From assembly GCF_014873915.1 (NCBI RefSeq), contig NZ_JADBEJ010000001.1:248001-312000 (forward strand): a stretch of 64,000 nt of DNA. The letters run 5' to 3'. Below the pieces are notes generated by a model. The model saw only the letters and a program-made list of their open reading frames with translations, had not been told where the DNA came from and searched no databases. Shown here piece after piece: positions 48,065 through 64,000 of this stretch (position 1 is the first letter of the stretch; the number at the start of each line of letters is the position of its first letter). The stretch comes from Amycolatopsis roodepoortensis (GTDB lineage: Bacteria; Actinomycetota; Actinomycetes; Mycobacteriales; Pseudonocardiaceae). The translations under genes and the position numbers were made by a program.

Positions 48065-48075
48065 CGTGCGGCACT

Positions 48076-48104
48076 AGAATTCCCTTGTGTGACAAGGGAA
48101 TTCT
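48076..48104 (+). promoter_or_regulatory. Perfect hairpin touching the ribosome-binding site of the mycosin-like gene
   Basis: 13-bp arms agaattcccttgt / acaagggaattct around the loop gtg. GGAGGA begins at the next base and ATG follows at once. It may end nadC transcription, bind a regulator, or limit translation of the next gene. Confidence 0.65.
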
Positions 48105-48110
48105 GGAGGA

Positions 48111-49280
48111 ATGGTGGGCTTTGCCGGTAAAAGTGCCGTCGCGGGATGCGTCGGTTTCGTGGCACTGCTCGGCACCCCCGTCCCGTCGACGGCGGTCGCC
48201 GAGCAGTGTGCGAACCCGACGGGCACCTACACCGCGGCCGTCCCGTGGGGACAGCGGCTGATCGATCCCGTGCGGATCTGGCCGCTCTCCCGCGGCACCG
48301 GCCAGCTGGTCGCGGTGATCGGCACCGGGGTCGACGGCGGCAACGGCCAGTTCGCGCCCGGCCAGCTCCTCGGCGGCCAGGGCACCCAGGCCGACGACTG
48401 CGACGGCCGGGGCACCATCGCGGCCGGGATCGTCGGCGCGCAACCGGATCCGTCCACGACGTTCACCGGGATCGCGCCGGGCGCCAAGATCCTGCCGATC
48501 CGCTACACCCAGGTGAACGGCGGCGGCGACCCCGGGCAGCTCGCGGGCGCCATCGAAACCGCGCTGAACCGCGGCGCCGGGATCATCCTGATCGCCGTCC
48601 CGGCCGCCTCCGACAGCCCAGCGTTGACCGGTGCCGTGTCGCGTGCCAAGGAGAAAGGCGCCTTGATCGTCTCTCCCGCCGCGGGGACGCAACAGGGCCA
48701 GACCTCCTATCCGACCGCGACACCGGGCGTGCTCGCGGTGGGATCGACCAATCAGACCGGTGCGGCGGTGCAGACGGAATCCGGTTCCTACGTGGGGATC
48801 TCCGCGCCCGGCGCCGAACTGGTCAGCACGTCCGCGGGCGCGGGCGGGACCGTGGCGCACCGGTGGCCGGTGAGTGACCCGAGCCTGGCCGCCGCGCACG
48901 TCGCCGGTGTCGCCGCGCTCGTGCGCGCGTATCACCCGGAGCTGACACCCGAGCAGGTCGTCACGCGGCTGACGCTGACCGCGCACCGCGGCCCGAGCGG
49001 TGGGCACGACCCCCGGCGGGGCTGGGGCGCGATCGACGCCTACGCCGCCGTTTCCGCCTCGATCCCGGCCGGCACGCCCGGCCCGGGAGGGCCGCCGAGC
49101 GCGGGCCCGGACACCTTCGTCGTCCCCGCCGCCGCTCCCGCGCGGGCCAACGCGGACAAGGTCTCCGGTGTGCTCGCCATCTCCGGGGTGGCGGCGGCCA
49201 TCGCGGCGGGCGTGGTGGTGGCCGCGGTCCGGCGGGGCAAGCGCCGGGGCTGGAAGCCTTCGCGGTTCCGCGCCTCGTGA
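48111..49280 (+). CDS. Mycosin-like subtilase with lost catalytic residues
   Basis: 389 aa with the layout of MycP proteases of ESX systems: signal peptide (AVAGCVGFVALLGTPVPSTAVA), subtilase domain, Pro-rich linker, C-terminal membrane helix (VSGVLAISGVAAAIAAGVVVAAV) and basic tail. The catalytic Asp of VIDTGV is Gly (VIGTGV, G71), the His of GHGT is Arg (GRGT, R100), and the oxyanion Asn is Thr (AAGT, T193). Only the Ser remains (SDPSLAAAHVAG, S258). A structural MycP role is more likely than proteolysis. The ATG may instead be GTG 48114, given the tight spacing to GGAGG. Convergent with ESX genes. Confidence 0.88.
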   Translation: MVGFAGKSAVAGCVGFVALLGTPVPSTAVAEQCANPTGTYTAAVPWGQRLIDPVRIWPLSRGTGQLVAVIGTGVDGGNGQFAPGQLLGGQGTQADDCDGRGTIAAGIVGAQPDPSTTFTGIAPGAKILPIRYTQVNGGGDPGQLAGAIETALNRGAGIILIAVPAASDSPALTGAVSRAKEKGALIVSPAAGTQQGQTSYPTATPGVLAVGSTNQTGAAVQTESGSYVGISAPGAELVSTSAGAGGTVAHRWPVSDPSLAAAHVAGVAALVRAYHPELTPEQVVTRLTLTAHRGPSGGHDPRRGWGAIDAYAAVSASIPAGTPGPGGPPSAGPDTFVVPAAAPARANADKVSGVLAISGVAAAIAAGVVVAAVRRGKRRGWKPSRFRAS

Positions 49281-49344: not shown

Positions 49345-49722
49345 TTAGGGGACGGGTACGCAGGCCGTCGAGCCCACGATGGCCACGCCGTCGCCGGCGC
49401 GGGAGACGTGCACGTTGAAGTCGGCGCCGTCGCGGCTGAACTGGGCGATCAGCTCACGCGGGTTGCTGCGGTCGCGGGTGCGCCAGCCCTGGCTTTCCAG
49501 CAGCGGCAGCACGACGTCGACCAGTTTGCGGATCGCGTCGGTCGCGTCGTCCACCCGGAGGCCGTACTGCCAGCAGAGCAACCGGCCCGGCTGCGTCGGG
49601 TCGCAGTCCAGCTCGCCTTCCACGGTGCGCTCCGCGCTGGAGCCGAAGGTGCCCGCGACGCCGTCGATGACCGCGGTCAGGTCCTCGGCCAGCGGGTCGA
49701 GCTCGGTGTTCCTGGTGATCAT
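49345..49722 (-). CDS. Small protein after the DUF1023 hydrolase, possible chaperone or immunity protein
   Basis: 125 aa (MITRNTELDPLAEDLTAVIDGVAGTF...ISR-type beta stretch...VAIVGSTACVPVP), no signal peptide, three Cys. The pattern of a helix (DAIRKLVDVVLPLLESQGW) followed by beta strands (ELIAQFSRDGADFNVHVSR, GVAIVGSTACV) resembles small proteins often next to T7SS substrates, some of which are immunity proteins; this is recollection. ATG 49722 follows GAGGGG. It starts 10 bp after the end of the hydrolase gene, so it belongs to the same operon. Confidence 0.72.
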   Translation of the reverse strand: MITRNTELDPLAEDLTAVIDGVAGTFGSSAERTVEGELDCDPTQPGRLLCWQYGLRVDDATDAIRKLVDVVLPLLESQGWRTRDRSNPRELIAQFSRDGADFNVHVSRAGDGVAIVGSTACVPVP

Positions 49723-49732
49723 GTCCAGCCCC

Positions 49733-51079
49733 TCACAAGCCTCGTCCGACGCCTTCGATGACCATCTCGCGCAGTGAGCCACCGGTGAAGCCCTCGTGGG
49801 TGACCGCGCCGCCGGTGATCACACCGTAGATGTTGTTCCAGGAATCGGAACCCGGCTTGAGCACCCCGCTGTGGGATTCGAGGCCCCACTGCAGATCGCC
49901 GTTCGCGTCGCGGCCCGTTTCCAGTTCGACGACGCCGGGGAAGCGGTCGGGGTCCGCTCCGTGCCCGGCGCCGAGCCATTCGACGAGGCCCGCGTTGCCC
50001 TGTGCCACCACGATCGGGTCGAAGGGGGCCGTCATGGAGTACCGCTGCACACCGGCTTGGCTGGCCGGGAGGTCGTCCGGGCCCCAGATCCCGTGGCCCA
50101 TCCCCGCGGACTCGACGTGCAGCACCTGGTCGGCCCGCAGGCCGAGCTGCTCGGCGAGCCCCACGGTCGCGCCGCCGTAGCTGTGCCCGACGGCGGTGAC
50201 CACGACGCCCGGTCCGGCGTGGCTGTCGATCTGGCCGCGCAGTTCGTCGCCGAACGCCTTGAGATCGGGCGCCATCGTCTGCGCGTAGTGCGCGGCCGGC
50301 CCTTCCGTGACGACGTTCTGCGGGAAGACCCCGTCGGCCCAGACCACCATCGCGGTACGCCCGGTGGCGTCCGCGGCGACCAGGCTCTTGCCGAGGTCGG
50401 CGTAACTCTGGAAGTTGCCGAACGAGGTGTTGACGCCGGGGACGAACAAGCCGACGTTGCGGGTGCCCGGCTCGATGCGGCCGACCAGTTCGGCGATGCG
50501 CCCGTTTCCGGACGGGTCGAACCGCAGGATCTGCCGGTCGTTGGCGAGGATGTCCTCGTACAGCGCGATCCGGGTGCGCGCGCTCGCGATGTCGTCGGCT
50601 TTTCCGCCCTGAGCCAGGAGGTTCGCGAGACGCTCGCGTTCGGTGGTCAGCGCGTCGGTGACCTTCGTGCGGTTTTCGGCGATCGCGGTGGCCCACGAGC
50701 CGGTGTCGGCCGCGCCGCCGACGCCTGCCGGATTCCCGGCCTTGGGCAACGGGTTCTCCGGCATGAGTGACCGGTACGCGGCGGCGATCTGGACGTCGGC
50801 GCGCCGGTATCCGCCGCCCGCGGCCGTCAGGCCCTGGTGGATCACCGTCGCCTTGGTGATCTGGCCGTCGAGTTTGCCCGCGACGTCCTTGATCGTCTTG
50901 GTGTACGTGGCCGAAGCCGCGCCGGAAGCCGAAACCTGGCCGAACGCGGTGGCGGGGACGTTCTCACCCGCCAGCGCGGTCTGCGCGGTCTTGAGCACGC
51001 CGGCGCGCTGTTCGAGTTCGGCCGCCGCCGCTTCGAGCCTGGCGGGGGCGACTCGGTAACCGCCCGCACTGGATGCCAT
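49733..51079 (-). CDS. DUF1023 alpha/beta hydrolase with WXG100-like N-terminus (probable T7SS substrate)
   Basis: 448 aa. Residues about 10-105 form an ESX-type helical hairpin with loop AFGQVSAS and export motif YRRAD (91-95, YxxxD). Residues about 185-448 are a DUF1023 alpha/beta hydrolase with nucleophile motif AVGHSYGGATVGLAEQLG (S300) and likely acid/His in PFDPIVV and ESHSGVL. Probably secreted as an esterase or lipase-type enzyme. ATG 51079 follows AGGAGAGG; a GTG precedes it. Between the PPE-like gene and the 125-aa gene. Confidence 0.85.
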   Translation of the reverse strand: MASSAGGYRVAPARLEAAAAELEQRAGVLKTAQTALAGENVPATAFGQVSASGAASATYTKTIKDVAGKLDGQITKATVIHQGLTAAGGGYRRADVQIAAAYRSLMPENPLPKAGNPAGVGGAADTGSWATAIAENRTKVTDALTTERERLANLLAQGGKADDIASARTRIALYEDILANDRQILRFDPSGNGRIAELVGRIEPGTRNVGLFVPGVNTSFGNFQSYADLGKSLVAADATGRTAMVVWADGVFPQNVVTEGPAAHYAQTMAPDLKAFGDELRGQIDSHAGPGVVVTAVGHSYGGATVGLAEQLGLRADQVLHVESAGMGHGIWGPDDLPASQAGVQRYSMTAPFDPIVVAQGNAGLVEWLGAGHGADPDRFPGVVELETGRDANGDLQWGLESHSGVLKPGSDSWNNIYGVITGGAVTHEGFTGGSLREMVIEGVGRGL

Positions 51080-51109
51080 CACCGAGCCGCCTCTCCTGGT
51101 GGAAAACGA

Positions 51110-52429
51110 TCAGTACTGTTCGGGTTCTTCGCCGAGCACGGCGGGAGCGACCGGGGACGACTGGCCCCAGACGTTCTCGGTCTCCACGAGCCACGGCGGG
51201 ATACGCCGCCCGGAGCCCATGTCGCCGCCCGCGCCCATGCCCATCGGCATCATGGGCATCATCGGCATCGCGCCCTTGGCCGCCGCCGCGCCCGCGGCGC
51301 CGGCCGCTCCGCCCGCCAGGCCGCTCATCGCGCTGCCAGAGCCGCCGTCGCCCGCCAGACCGGAGAACGCCGCCGGGGCCTCACCGGGACCGGAGAATCC
51401 GCCGCCGCCTCCGCCGGCGCCGATCGCGCCGCCGTCCAGCGACGGCGCTCCGCCACCGCCGATCGGGATGCCGCCGCCGGTGCCGCCCGCGGTCGCGCCC
51501 GCGCCCGCGCCGCCGGCACCGCCGCCGACGATCTCGCCGTCCTTCTTCTCGTCCTTGGGGTTCTTGCCGTTCGCCCACGGGGGCACCCGCGGCATGATCG
51601 AGCCGAACCGGCCGAACGCGGCGGCCGAGGCCGCGGCGAGACCGGCGGTGAACATGTCGCCGAACAGCGGGTTCGATTTGGGCACCTGGCCCGGCTGTCC
51701 GGTGGTGGGCGGCGTGGAGCCGTCGGACGGCAGCGGATGCGTGTTGTCGCCCGGCACCACGCCGACGCCGGGGGTTCCACCGATGTCGTTGCCGACCGAG
51801 CCACCCGGGGCGGTGCCGCCACCGGTGACCGGCGGCGGGGCGACGGCGTTCGGTGAGGCCGGAATGGACTCCTCCGCGGTGGAGTACTCGCCCGCGAGCT
51901 GGGTCATCACCACGATCGCCTTGCTGTGCGCCGCGCTGGCCGCGCCCGCGGCCTGCTGCTGCGCTTCGACGTTCGCGATGGCCTGCTGCCGCTGCTGCGC
52001 GGCGTTGATGATCGTCGCCTGCGACGAATCCGGCGGCAGCAGCGGCGGGTTGACGGCCAGCGCGAGATCCGCGGGGGAGACGTCGGGCACCGCGACGGGC
52101 GGCGGCATCTCCTTCTTGGCCTTCACCAGCGCGTCCGCGGCGTCCTCGAGGAGGTTGTTCATCGCCTGCGCGGTCTGGGCGACCTTGCGGATTCCGCCGA
52201 CGAGATCGCTGATCATGGTGTGGTACTTGTCGGCGGCGCCACCGGTCCAGTTGCCGGAGAACTCCTTCAGCTCGCCGGTCAGGTTCTCGGCCTGTTCGAA
52301 GAGCCCGAGGCCGGTGGACTGCCATTTGTGGGCCGCGTGGCGCGCCGTGTTGGGGTCGCCCGCCTGCAGCATCGCGTAGAGCTGCTGGTGCGAGTACGCG
52401 GCGAAGTTCGTGTGCGCGGTCTCGGTCAT
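51110..52429 (-). CDS. PPE-like, Gly/Ala-rich T7SS protein
   Basis: 439 aa. N-terminal helical region with W61-T-G63 (SGNWTGGAADKYHTMI) and YSTAE (182-186, YxxxE) fits a PPE-like ESX substrate. The C-terminal half is low complexity: Gly/Ala-rich and Pro-rich stretches and a Met-rich run (MPMMPMMPMGMG), ending in charged VETENVWGQSSPV. No enzymatic domain. Overlaps the 134-aa gene by 4 bp, so they are co-translated. Confidence 0.82.
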   Translation of the reverse strand: MTETAHTNFAAYSHQQLYAMLQAGDPNTARHAAHKWQSTGLGLFEQAENLTGELKEFSGNWTGGAADKYHTMISDLVGGIRKVAQTAQAMNNLLEDAADALVKAKKEMPPPVAVPDVSPADLALAVNPPLLPPDSSQATIINAAQQRQQAIANVEAQQQAAGAASAAHSKAIVVMTQLAGEYSTAEESIPASPNAVAPPPVTGGGTAPGGSVGNDIGGTPGVGVVPGDNTHPLPSDGSTPPTTGQPGQVPKSNPLFGDMFTAGLAAASAAAFGRFGSIMPRVPPWANGKNPKDEKKDGEIVGGGAGGAGAGATAGGTGGGIPIGGGGAPSLDGGAIGAGGGGGGFSGPGEAPAAFSGLAGDGGSGSAMSGLAGGAAGAAGAAAAKGAMPMMPMMPMGMGAGGDMGSGRRIPPWLVETENVWGQSSPVAPAVLGEEPEQY

Positions 52430-52830
52430 CCCTTGTTCCCCCCGCCGTTCGAGCCGCTGTTACCGCCCAGCACGCCCCCGAGGACGTTGAGCAACGGATC
52501 GAGCAGCCCGGTCTGCTGGCTCGCGTGGTTGATGTCGCCCGCCACCGAGTCGTCCGCGGCCGCGTAGCCGTCGGCAACGGTCGTCGTGACGTCCTGCGCG
52601 AAGGTGATCGCGCCCTTGACCTGGTCCAGCAGGCCCTGCATCTCGGCGACGGCCGCCTGGTGCGCCTTGTTGAGTGAGCCCGCCTCTCCGAACTCACCGA
52701 ACAGCAGCGGCTGCTCGGTCAGGGTCAGCAGGAAGTCGTTCGGCTTGGACATCGCGTGGATCTGGGTCTCCAGTTCCCGCACGAAGTCCTTCAGTGATTC
52801 CAGATGGACGTAGTACGACTGGTCTTGCAT
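52426..52830 (-). CDS. ESX-associated helical protein with YxxxD motif
   Basis: 134 aa, mostly helical: MQDQSYYVHLESLKDFVRELETQI, turn LLFGEFGEAGS (no WXG), then VAEMQGLLDQVKGAITFAQDV, YAAAD (89-93, YxxxD), and a Gly/Asn-rich tail. Likely partner of the overlapping PPE-like protein. ATG 52830. 114 bp downstream of the WXG100 gene, in the same direction. Confidence 0.8.
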   Translation of the reverse strand: MQDQSYYVHLESLKDFVRELETQIHAMSKPNDFLLTLTEQPLLFGEFGEAGSLNKAHQAAVAEMQGLLDQVKGAITFAQDVTTTVADGYAAADDSVAGDINHASQQTGLLDPLLNVLGGVLGGNSGSNGGGNKG

Positions 52831-52944
52831 TGATCCCGGCTCTCTCGTGAACGGCCACGCCGACAAGGGGGACGACTACGCGCAAAGCCGGCCGGCCGGT
52901 GCCGAGGGGGGTGAAAGCACCGGCCGGCCGACGGATGGGGACGA

Positions 52945-53247
52945 TCAGCCGGCGAACAGGCCCTGGTTGCGGTTCTCCAGGCTGTGCTGGAGATCGTGGG
53001 CGTCGCCGACCTTGCCACCGAACTGCGCGATGATCGCCACGATGTCCGCGGTGGCCTGGCGCAGGCGGGTTTCAGACGCACGGGCGGCCTCACCGGCGGA
53101 GCTGCCGGAGGCGTACCAGGTCTGGGTGATCGGCTGCAGGTTGGTGTGCAGCTGTTCGAGCTGGGACGTGAGCGCCTTGGCCTTGGCGGCCAGCGAGGCC
53201 GAGCTGTGCTGCAGCGCGGCGAAGTTGATTTCGACGACGTCAGCCAT
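52945..53247 (-). CDS. WXG100-family protein (ESAT-6-like)
   Basis: 100 aa, exactly the family size: two helices joined by TWYASGSSAGEAA, where W44-Y-A replaces WXG. No YxxxD/E at the C-terminus (ends NRNQGLFAG), as expected for the partner that lacks the export motif. Together with the next gene (22 bp gap between them) it should form the ESX heterodimer. Confidence 0.9.
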   Translation of the reverse strand: MADVVEINFAALQHSSASLAAKAKALTSQLEQLHTNLQPITQTWYASGSSAGEAARASETRLRQATADIVAIIAQFGGKVGDAHDLQHSLENRNQGLFAG

Positions 53248-53268: not shown

Positions 53269-53610
53269 TCAGGGGTTCAGCCGGTGGATCACGGTCTGGT
53301 CGACGACTCCGCTGACCCCGGTGAGGCTTTCCCGGACCTGCTCGTCACCCGAGTTGTAGTTCCGGTTGCTCTCGTGCACGAGGCGCGACATCGTGTTGAG
53401 CTCGTTCACGGCGATGGTCATCTTCTCCTGCAGACGGCGCTGCAGATCCCAGAACGCGACCGCCTGGTCACCCTTGTAGTTGTGCAGGGTCTGGGTCAGC
53501 TCGCTCTCCAAGCTGGCCATCGTGGTCTTGGCGTTCGACGCGGTCTCCTCGAACCCCTGGACGGCGCGCGCCATCGCAGCTGCGTCTGCCTGATATCCCG
53601 TACCGGTCAT
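53269..53610 (-). CDS. WXG100-like protein (CFP-10-like partner)
   Basis: 113 aa. Helix 1 AAAMARAVQGFEETASNAKTTMASLE, turn YKGDQAVAFW where Y45-K-G47 stands in for WXG, helix 2 DLQRRLQEKMTIAVNELNTM, then YNSGD (85-89, YxxxD) as export motif. ATG 53610 lies 11 bp after GAGGAGGTGG. First gene of the cassette running towards 49345. Confidence 0.88.
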   Translation of the reverse strand: MTGTGYQADAAAMARAVQGFEETASNAKTTMASLESELTQTLHNYKGDQAVAFWDLQRRLQEKMTIAVNELNTMSRLVHESNRNYNSGDEQVRESLTGVSGVVDQTVIHRLNP

Positions 53611-53840
53611 TGATGGGCCACCTCCTCTCATCTCGCTGGAAATCCCGGTGAGCACCAGGGGACGCCCTGTCTGCTCTTGTGAAGGACACGCTAGAAAAGA
53701 GGGGAGTGCGGTCAAACGGCACAACTGCCGGTCGCGCTGACGGCACTATTACCCACAGGTCGGTGGTAGGGCTTTCCCCACCCTCGATCTGGGGGAATGC
53801 TCCAGTGTCCGGATCGGAGCTTCCCGGCACGCTCGATCCC

Positions 53841-55669: not shown

Positions 55670-56374
55670 TCAGACTCCCGCGGTGGTGCGGATCCAGTCG
55701 CGGCTCGCCGCGACGCTGGCGTAGTTCTGGGTGCCCTGCGGGTTCGTGCCGGAGTTGCTGCCGGTCGAGCAGACACCGACCTGGACGCCGTTCGCGAGCT
55801 GCGGGCCGCCCGAGTCGCCGTGCCAGGCCGAACCGTTGACGCCGACGCTGGCGATGGCCTGGCCGCCGTACGCGTCGCTGCTGGTGCCGGTGATGCGGAC
55901 GTCGGCCGTCTTCAGAACGCTCGACGGCGGGTTGTTGCCCTGCGTACGGCCCCAGCCGTAGATCTGGTTGGTGGTTCCGTTGGCCGGGTTCGCGGTGCCG
56001 AGCTTCATGTACGTCGTGCTGACTGCGGTCGTGAGGTGCAGGAGGGCGATGTCGCCGCTCGGGGCGGCCTTCTGCTGGTCGACGTCGGCTTCGGTGCCCT
56101 GGTTCAGGTTGACGTTGCCGACCTTGACGTGCATGCCGGGCTTGTTCAGGCAGTGCTTCGCGGTAAGGACCCACTGCGGGGCGATGATCGTGCCGGAGCA
56201 GTTGAAACCGCCGAACGCGGTGGCGTCGTCCCAGTAGATCTGGGCGCCCCACGGCGCGGAACTCACGGTGCCGCCGCCGATGATGTCCTGGCCCGCGTTC
56301 GCGGCGGGGGTGGCGGCAAGGGTCAGCGCCGCGGCGGCACCGGCCACCGTGGCGACGATCTTGGACATACGCAT
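55670..56374 (-). CDS. Secreted trypsin-like serine protease
   Basis: 234-aa S1 protease. Signal peptide VATVAGAAAALTLAATPAANA, then IIGGGTVS at the mature start, and an intact triad: H74 in TAKHC, D108 in GDIALL, S188 in GDSGGP. Two cysteine pairs are possible (C59 with C75; C beside the Ser loop). There is little propeptide between signal and IIGGG. ATG 56374. It may act on secreted material; no link to the ESX genes is shown. Confidence 0.93.
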   Translation of the reverse strand: MRMSKIVATVAGAAAALTLAATPAANAGQDIIGGGTVSSAPWGAQIYWDDATAFGGFNCSGTIIAPQWVLTAKHCLNKPGMHVKVGNVNLNQGTEADVDQQKAAPSGDIALLHLTTAVSTTYMKLGTANPANGTTNQIYGWGRTQGNNPPSSVLKTADVRITGTSSDAYGGQAIASVGVNGSAWHGDSGGPQLANGVQVGVCSTGSNSGTNPQGTQNYASVAASRDWIRTTAGV

Positions 56375-56570
56375 GAATACGCCCTTCAGCCTGCGTCGGG
56401 GATTCCGTTTCGGTTTCACCAAGTTAGGCTGCGGTAAGGGTTTTTGTAACCTACTGAAGTCGGTGATCTCCCTTTGCGAATTCGGAATTGGGACGGATGT
56501 TGCCTTTTGCCTTGGACGTCCGTTGTATCCGGATTCCCGTAGCTCGCCCGCCGGCGTTTAGGGTGTTCGC

Positions 56571-63600: not shown

Positions 63601-64000
63601 TCACGGTGACACCGAGCTTGCCCTCTTCGGCGACGAGCCGCGTGTCGCCGTGGGTGTGCCCGCCGTCCACGATCACGACGATATGCGGCAGGTCCAGCCG
63701 GGCGTCCGGCCGCCGGGTGAACGCGGGCCGGTCGCCGAGGTCGGGGCCGAGGAGTTCGGCGAGCTTCCCGGCACCGGAGTCGACCAGCCGCCGCGGGCCG
63801 GCGGCGTCGGCGGCGGTGGAGGCGACGTGCGGCAGCCACTTCGCCCATTCCCAGTCGTGCAGCCGATCGTCCTTGACGCACAACGCGATCCGCAGGTCGC
63901 CGGGCGCGTGGAAGGTGGCGAGCTGGGTCAGCAGCGCACGCGCGGTCCCGAGCGTGTCCGGGCGCCGGCCGGACAGACTGACCTGCGCGAACGACCGGAG
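60671..64000 (-). CDS. eccC: Type VII secretion motor ATPase EccC (N-terminus outside window)
   Basis: At least 1109 residues of the FtsK/SpoIIIE-like ESX motor; frame is still open at the right edge. Three ATPase domains are visible: P-loops VIGATGSGKSELL (about 63160-63190), VGAPQSGKSTLMRD (about 62120-62145) and FGDVESGKSSLLRA (about 61262-61290), with Walker B-like LLVIIDEFSEL in the first. It drives WXG100 pairs through the membrane channel. The serine hydrolase gene follows. No EccB, EccD or EccE gene is in the window, but may lie beyond the edge. Confidence 0.95.
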   Translation of the reverse strand, partial: LRSFAQVSLSGRRPDTLGTARALLTQLATFHAPGDLRIALCVKDDRLHDWEWAKWLPHVASTAADAAGPRRLVDSGAGKLAELLGPDLGDRPAFTRRPDARLDLPHIVVIVDGGHTHGDTRLVAEEGKLGVTVIEIGTEQPRAVSSERLLSLHMSPEQLGMVVGDGTEQRLGFLGKPDTLDRGAAEALSRMLTPLFQGAAVVSEAPMSATFGLAGLLGIGDPRDTDTEVTWAPRSARDRLRIPLGVNPEGRPVELDLKESAEGGMGPHGLVIGATGSGKSELLRTLVTALAVTHSSEKLNLALIDFKGGATFAGMTGLPHTCAVITNLSDDLALVDRMADALNGELLRRQELLHAAGNYASVRDYEKARESGANLRPLPSLLVIIDEFSELLSSRPEFIDLFVAIGRLGRSLGIHLLLASQRLEEGRLRGLDSHLSYRIGLRTFSASESRAVLGVADAYQLPPVPGSAYLKSDNDTLIRLKAAYVSGELPPRSKIVRKDGQSLGLMPFTLAPVEIPVTVEAEEPVEKGTGETIIGAMISRIEGKGPEAHQIWLPPLAEPPTLDQLLPPLGEDPERGLCPLGWGGNGKLMIPVALVDKPFEQRRDMLWADFSGAAGHALIVGAPQSGKSTLMRDIAAMLALTHTPEEVQLFVLDMGGGALAPIAGLPHVSGYATRRDAQRCRRVVAELTTLLEQREEFFSANGIESITTFRQRRSEFRESTEGREFGDVFLFVDNWTTIRQEYEQLEEQITSLASRGLGFGIHVVVSINQWMGMRATLRDAIGTKFELRLGEPADSLIDRKIAQNVPADRPGRGLTADKLHFLAALPRIDSDQRPDTIGAGGLDLNRRISAAWKGAAAPQVRLLPPEVPLDSLEAGPRKQITLGIAESNLRPVYLDFATEPHFLAFGDVESGKSSLLRAIAQGIVSKYSAEEAAIVVADYRRGMLGAVPDSHLLGYAGSETVLTGLIDQCQQAMRNRLPGADVTPDQLRNRSWWRGPELFVLVDDYEMVATVGRNPLQPLLEFLPQARDIGLHLVIARGSGGAGRSLFEPVLQRIRELGSPGLVMSGSRDEGALLGEVKPGPQPAGRGVLVSRRHGTGLVQVAWTKPVED

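Follow-up and report, generated by a model that had tools for sequence, protein, structure and literature searches.

A complete ESX locus of Amycolatopsis roodepoortensis has as its sole mycosin a protein without catalytic Asp, His and oxyanion Asn

Introduction

The mycosins (MycP) of the mycobacterial ESX secretion systems are the closest described relatives of the gene treated here. ESX-1 secretion is abolished when mycP1 is deleted, while mutants with a changed active site or a blocked pocket still secrete, even above the wild-type level, and mycosins stabilise the membrane complex (PMC5082899). In ESX-5, three MycP5 cap the EccB5 chamber and enable the trimerisation of EccB5 dimers, according to the available portion of the structural report (PMC8131196; PDB 7np7). 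Ever since the MycP mutants were described, it has been a puzzle why an essential secretion subunit should be a protease with dispensable activity. Here we describe a mycosin-like gene (hereafter the pseudo-mycosin) in a stretch of 64,000 nucleotides from A. roodepoortensis (contig NZ_JADBEJ010000001.1, positions 248,001 to 312,000; hereafter the window). Its product has lost the catalytic Asp and His and the oxyanion Asn. It is the sole mycosin in a complete ESX locus and most likely acts as a structural subunit without proteolysis.

The S8 family has other pseudoproteases in which a subtilisin fold has lost catalysis, among them CspBA, which acts in germination. CspBA belongs to a different pathway, and its profile match to the present protein is weak and insignificant (E 0.33). 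For mycosins, a recent survey of type VII variants describes the mycosin as a protease component, and a genome paper on Amycolatopsis counts mycP among the S8 peptidases, in the accessible parts of both. No report of natural pseudo-mycosins was found in the open-licence literature searched, nor of complete ESX loci in which the sole mycosin is a dead one that is natural, conserved and recurrent. The parts are of known kinds (mycosin, ESX).

Results and Discussion

A mycosin fold without catalytic Asp, His and oxyanion Asn

The gene and the codons concerned are listed below; "clade rows" are 23 representative aligned sequences of the pseudo-mycosin clade, and genus counts refer to the 30 of 33 Amycolatopsis orthologues that were read.

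48111..49280, + strand: pseudo-mycosin gene, 389 aa, ATG start, no internal stop
48321..48323, + strand: codon 71, Gly replacing the catalytic Asp (MycP1 alignment; 30/30 genus orthologues)
48408..48410, + strand: codon 100, Arg replacing the catalytic His in DCDGRGT (30/30 genus orthologues; 23/23 clade rows)
48684..48686, + strand: codon 192, Gly replacing the oxyanion Asn (column is Asn in 100/102 triad-intact rows)
48882..48884, + strand: codon 258, Ser at the nucleophile position in a DPS, not GTS, context (alignment)

The mycosin/subtilisin fold is supported by a Pfam Peptidase_S8 match of 92 bits (cut-off 21.8). Catalytic columns were assigned by aligning the 389-aa protein to solved MycP1 chains, which places VAVIGTGV opposite VAVIDTGV, DCDGRGT opposite DCDAHGT and DPSLAAA opposite GTSFSAA. 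Where MycP1 and MycP3 (PDB 4m1z, 4kpg, 4kg7) carry intact Asp, His, Asn and GTS, the pseudo-mycosin thus has Gly, Arg, Gly and DPS. The oxyanion column holds Gly or Ala in all 23 clade rows, none of which has an Asn anywhere at positions 186-196. An earlier note, made from the DNA sequence of the window, had proposed an intact reading frame, a retained fold and the changes Asp to Gly at 71 and His to Arg at 100, and the alignment and orthologues bear this out. It was also right that the oxyanion Asn is lost, but it had assigned this to Thr193, one residue past the column occupied by Gly192. Its count of three lost elements out of four is true of the window protein; in many orthologues the Ser is gone as well.

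Two cysteines typical of mycosins are retained: C33 in the N-terminal extension and C97 in the His motif align to cysteines of MycP1 and are invariant in the 23 clade rows. Residues 1-31 resemble a signal peptide when judged by eye. A C-terminal helix (350-378) is predicted in a low-confidence part of the structure model, with basic residues after it in the sequence.

Conservation and selection

An orthologue of at least 60% identity is present in 33 of 36 Amycolatopsis genomes, including that of A. roodepoortensis. All 30 genus orthologues read have Gly71 and Arg100, while position 192 is Gly (15) or Ala (15) and position 258 Ser (18) or Gly (12). Among named genomes, a scan picked up 33 Amycolatopsis loci and single loci in Kutzneria, Goodfellowiella and Labedaea; one more hit, L095 at 25% identity, is unrelated. 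Amycolatopsis and Labedaea both belong to the Pseudonocardiaceae by taxonomy look-up. Among 150 sampled genomes of the family, with 12 candidates per genome scored, 22 genomes (7 Amycolatopsis, 15 others) in eight genera including Amycolatopsis carry a relative of at least 50% identity, the next matches reaching at most 45%. An order-wide search of 298 genomes, with six candidates per genome scored, gave no such relative outside Amycolatopsis in a sample apparently without the other positive genera.

The 14 other-genus sequences read all lack Asp, His, Asn and the GTS motif, and in a fifteenth, from G070, the four catalytic positions read Gly, Gln, Gly and Ala. Eight fetched matches at 40-45% identity keep the triad. 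Over the clade rows, residue 71 is Gly in 18 and Ala in 5, residue 100 is Arg in all 23, and residue 192 is Gly in 16 and Ala in 7; residue 258 is Ala in 10, Ser in 6 and Gly in 4, with Thr, Ile and Leu once each. The losses are hence conserved, and no orthologue read has the full triad. The earlier note had allowed that Asp and His might lie elsewhere in the alignment, but no relocated triad is visible, as neither a His nor a Ser is invariant in the 23 rows; position 250 is His in 22 and Gln in one.

The ratio of nonsynonymous to synonymous substitution rates (dN/dS) has a median of 0.156 and a maximum of 0.226 (78 pairs, 13 sequences), compared with 0.069 for eccD of the same locus. The pseudo-mycosin gene is under purifying selection. 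Given the conserved losses and this ratio, recent decay and an error of sequencing were both rejected, and the agreement of the 30 genus orthologues also speaks against chance.

The pseudo-mycosin within its ESX locus

The ESX locus extends beyond the right end of the window, with eccD, eccE and eccB lying within 9 kb after eccC. Its components, apart from the pseudo-mycosin, are as follows.

60671..64612 (window ends at 64000), - strand: eccC, 1313 aa, over the NCBIfam cut-offs
genome C1:316842-318182, past the window, + strand: eccD, over the NCBIfam cut-off
genome C1:318387-319460, past the window, - strand: eccE, over the Pfam cut-off
genome C1:319606-321030, past the window, + strand: eccB, over the NCBIfam cut-off
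49345..49782, - strand: small open reading frame at the end of the convergent cassette, start uncertain; no Pfam match for the 125-aa form
49733..51082, - strand: alpha/beta hydrolase (Pfam Abhydrolase_8) with a WXG100-like N-terminus under the cut-off
51110..52429, - strand: PPE/EspB-like protein; WXG100_2 over the cut-off, PPE and EspB_PPE under it
52426..52866, - strand: small open reading frame with a YxxxD motif (YAAAD, from the sequence), adjoining the PPE-like gene
52945..53247, - strand: WXG100-like protein A, 25.1 bits against a cut-off of 27.3
53269..53724, - strand: WXG100 protein B with a YxxxD motif (YNSGD), 32.1 bits, passing the cut-off of 27.3

The NCBIfam scores are 268.3 bits for EccB (cut-off 154), 918.5 and 841.4 for EccC (509.15 and 346.55) and 193.9 for EccD (94.95), while EccE reaches 85 in Pfam (23.7). 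The stretch from eccC to the pseudo-mycosin holds the convergent cassette and several genes without evident link. The pseudo-mycosin is the only mycosin of this complete locus (eccB, eccC, eccD, eccE and WXG100/PPE-like genes). The earlier note had paired it with the substrate cassette, which is indeed present; this was too narrow, and an accessory role to the cassette only is superseded by the full eccBCDE locus.

The same association is seen in 19 other genomes, 5 of Amycolatopsis and 14 of other genera, in each of which a stretch of about 30-40 kb was read. In all 19, eccC and eccD accompany the pseudo-mycosin, and eccB does so in 18, the stretch from G074 ending just past the pseudo-mycosin. 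Within the stretches read, no second mycosin was found in any of the 20 loci (A. roodepoortensis and the 19). In eight of the 19 loci, from five genera, eccB is the neighbouring query gene at about 0.7-4.6 kb; the genes there follow one another as eccE-eccB-pseudo-mycosin-(PPE, small protein, WXG100)-eccC-...-eccD, with some variants.

Co-occurrence was scored in 80 genomes with the EccD of the locus as query, orthologues having at least 48% identity and the other listed matches at most 39%. Pseudo-mycosin and this EccD were found together in 47 of 48 genomes, and 32 genomes had neither. The EccD orthologue is present in exactly the 33 positive genus genomes and none of the three negative ones, in 14 of the 15 other-genus positives, and in none of 29 negatives. 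The exception, G070, has the pseudo-mycosin without EccD in an assembly that is 74% complete and in about 1020 pieces. Where they share a contig, the two genes lie about 11-33 kb apart; they are on different contigs in G002, G023 and G024.

The A. roodepoortensis genome encodes three EccC and three EccD over the cut-offs. It also encodes two mycosins over the mycosin cut-off with a full triad, one beside each of the two other ESX systems. The nearest other subtilase match on the contig of the pseudo-mycosin is more than 100 kb away.

Dead mycosins in other ESX loci

The dead state is not unique to the window gene. In G011, an Amycolatopsis without the first system, a mycosin has Ala, Ile and Ala at the Asp, His and Ser positions; the corresponding residues are Gly, Ile and Ala in G073, of the same family, and Ala, Phe and Ala in G047, of another. 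In six Amycolatopsis genomes a mycosin keeps Asp and His while Ser is replaced by Ala and Asn by Arg or Pro. G011, G073, G047, G049 and four of these six Ser-to-Ala genomes each have the dead mycosin inside an eccB-eccC-eccD cluster with no intact one. Locus L233 of G049 (C1:1628000-1646000) contains three mycosin-like genes, none with an intact triad and oxyanion site.

Recurrence was also followed in an order sample of 51 genomes, which is not a census. The 67 rows read comprise 27 of 29 new best-per-genome loci (two were dropped as incomplete) and 40 fetched matches reaching the profile end, and about ten further profile-end matches, in G036, G042, G091, G124, G151, G209 and G218, lie outside this set. 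In six of the 67, one or more of Asp, His and Ser are missing, and each of the six is the sole mycosin found in an eccBCD locus. ESX loci with only dead mycosins occur in three other families.

Searches of five genomes of one family gave a single mycosin match in G207, which is dead (Ser/Gln/Ala), and two in G037, both dead; these two genomes, searched whole, had no match to an intact mycosin. At this search depth, rescue in trans by an intact mycosin is unavailable in either. G224 and G052 have one full-length match each, also dead, alongside weaker subtilase-like matches: L340, which scores 149.2 bits with incomplete cover, and L341, at 48.7 bits, have the triad and resemble other subtilases, and L342 scores 41.2 bits.

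On a 133-row tree, the window clade, with its 23 representatives, forms a single branch (Shimodaira-Hasegawa-like approximate likelihood ratio test support 100). Left out as duplicates were L085, L091, L092, L236, L239 and L240, and also excluded were L207, L231, L234, L235 and L237. The dead label requires four state changes on this tree, three of them forced by well-supported branches. Mycosins have lost catalysis more than once.

A probable structural role for the pseudo-mycosin

This catalytically dead protein, the only mycosin of its own ESX system, most likely serves that system as a structural periplasmic cap without proteolysis. The pseudo-mycosin would be exported and then anchored by its C-terminal helix, as suggested by eye and from the model. 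Its task would match that of MycP5 in mycobacterial ESX-5, namely to cap and stabilise the EccB chamber in the periplasm, and substrates would not be cleaved by it. We infer this most likely role from the published MycP5 structure and MycP mutants, to which the loci described here add the observed residue loss, linkage and recurrence. The separation of structural from proteolytic role that the earlier note had envisaged is supported to this extent.

Like MycP5, the pseudo-mycosin is the mycosin of a complete eccBCDE system, and its profile match covers the MycP5 C-terminal part and anchor. It is shorter (389 versus 585 residues) and has lost the features of activity, whereas MycP5 keeps them, with active sites facing the chamber in the available text of the structural report (PMC8131196). 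Trp523 of MycP5 is a contact residue with EccB5. Protease-dead MycP1 made in the laboratory (S354A, N239Y/N259Y) is likewise an inactive mycosin with which secretion is still supported, according to the accessible part of PMC5082899. Those mutations are engineered changes in an active protein, whereas the state of the pseudo-mycosin is natural and conserved.

Several observations weigh against this reading or limit it. The protein scores 237.7 bits with NCBIfam T7SS_mycosin (TIGR03921), under the equivalog cut-off of 278.75, EccE is under its NCBIfam cut-off (89.9 against 108), and the confidence of the structure model is middling (predicted local distance difference test, pLDDT, 62.8; predicted template modelling score, pTM, 0.68). 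Ser258 is retained in the window protein and its nearest relatives, and the two intact mycosins of the genome could in principle act in trans. Elsewhere, L285 (G216 C8:141347-142399), the single match of G216, has an intact triad within a dead clade, with Asp for the oxyanion Asn, and is possibly an evolutionary intermediate. In L313 (G206), D, H and S are all present, with the context changed to GES, and L317 has a dead triad with the oxyanion Asn kept. Finally, several dead rows are long branches, which leaves the exact number of losses uncertain.

The alternative that survives best, although improbable, is that the pocket has been rebuilt for a different function, such as binding of a substrate or peptide without cutting through the near-invariant Arg100. 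Arg100 is fixed in the 23 clade rows and 30 genus orthologues, and DCDGRGT and Gly/Ala71 are conserved even though a released site could drift. Against this, one further orthologue has Gln at position 100, and Ala, Ser, Gly, Thr, Ile and Leu all occur at the position of the nucleophile. In other dead mycosins the His position is Ile, Phe, Thr, Gln, Val, Gly, Ser or Glu, and Arg only once (L209), with His kept in eight, so that no common new chemistry is seen.

Slightly less probable still is a regulator freed from the ESX complex. It might, for example, bind the active mycosins that serve the other two ESX systems, or the substrates of these, or compete with them. The genome does encode two intact mycosins, and pseudoproteases elsewhere often act on active relatives. 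The presence of the gene nevertheless tracks one ESX lineage, scored against the EccD of that lineage only, and it sits in that very locus, with eccB as neighbouring query gene in eight of 19 other loci; in G207 and G037, another dead lineage, only dead matches were found and an active mycosin to regulate is missing. That the gene is decaying toward loss while an intact mycosin serves its ESX in trans is very improbable: the catalytic residues are gone and two intact mycosins are available, but the median dN/dS is 0.156, the frame is open in the orthologues read, the gene is retained in eight genera and together with eccD, and G207, of another dead lineage, has no other mycosin match.

The recurrence of the dead state in other ESX loci suggests that the essential job of a mycosin is to hold the machine together, not to cut. 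ESX loci that retain a mycosin but drop the protease are an apparent natural experiment and argue that the conserved essential role is architectural. More tentatively, and with appreciable doubt, mycosin proteolysis may have been given up on several occasions, and ESX systems with only dead mycosins may form a sizeable class in at least four families of the order, in some species genome-wide, with the mycosin as a pure assembly subunit; in the window clade the pocket, rebuilt around the near-fixed Arg, may then have a structural or gating function in the secretion chamber. The environmental species concerned are offered for studying the structural role free of proteolysis. It is unsafe to annotate mycosin-like proteins as serine proteases or to assume a universal mycosin active site.

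Neighbouring genes and minor features

A functional link to the upstream nadABC operon was considered and rejected: nadC is adjacent in all five other Amycolatopsis loci and was found in none of the 14 other-genus loci, compared with 19 of 19 for eccC and eccD. A trypsin-like protease gene (55670-56422) lies between the substrate cassette and eccC in most Amycolatopsis. As a replacement protease it was dismissed, since it was not found in the 14 other-genus loci or in G004 and hence does not travel with the system.

WXG100-like protein A (52945-53247), despite its sub-cut-off Pfam score, is 93-100% identical in most Amycolatopsis loci, the lowest value being 81%. A gene for a YbaB/EbfC nucleoid protein adjoins eccD (L129:15484-15813, equal to genome C1:316483-316812), and likewise in 19 other loci. 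Between nadC and the pseudo-mycosin, directly before GGAGG, lies a near-perfect hairpin (48074-48106; about -22 kcal/mol, z -5.6), a candidate terminator, leader or operator whose sequence is nearly the same in eight close relatives (L059-L066).
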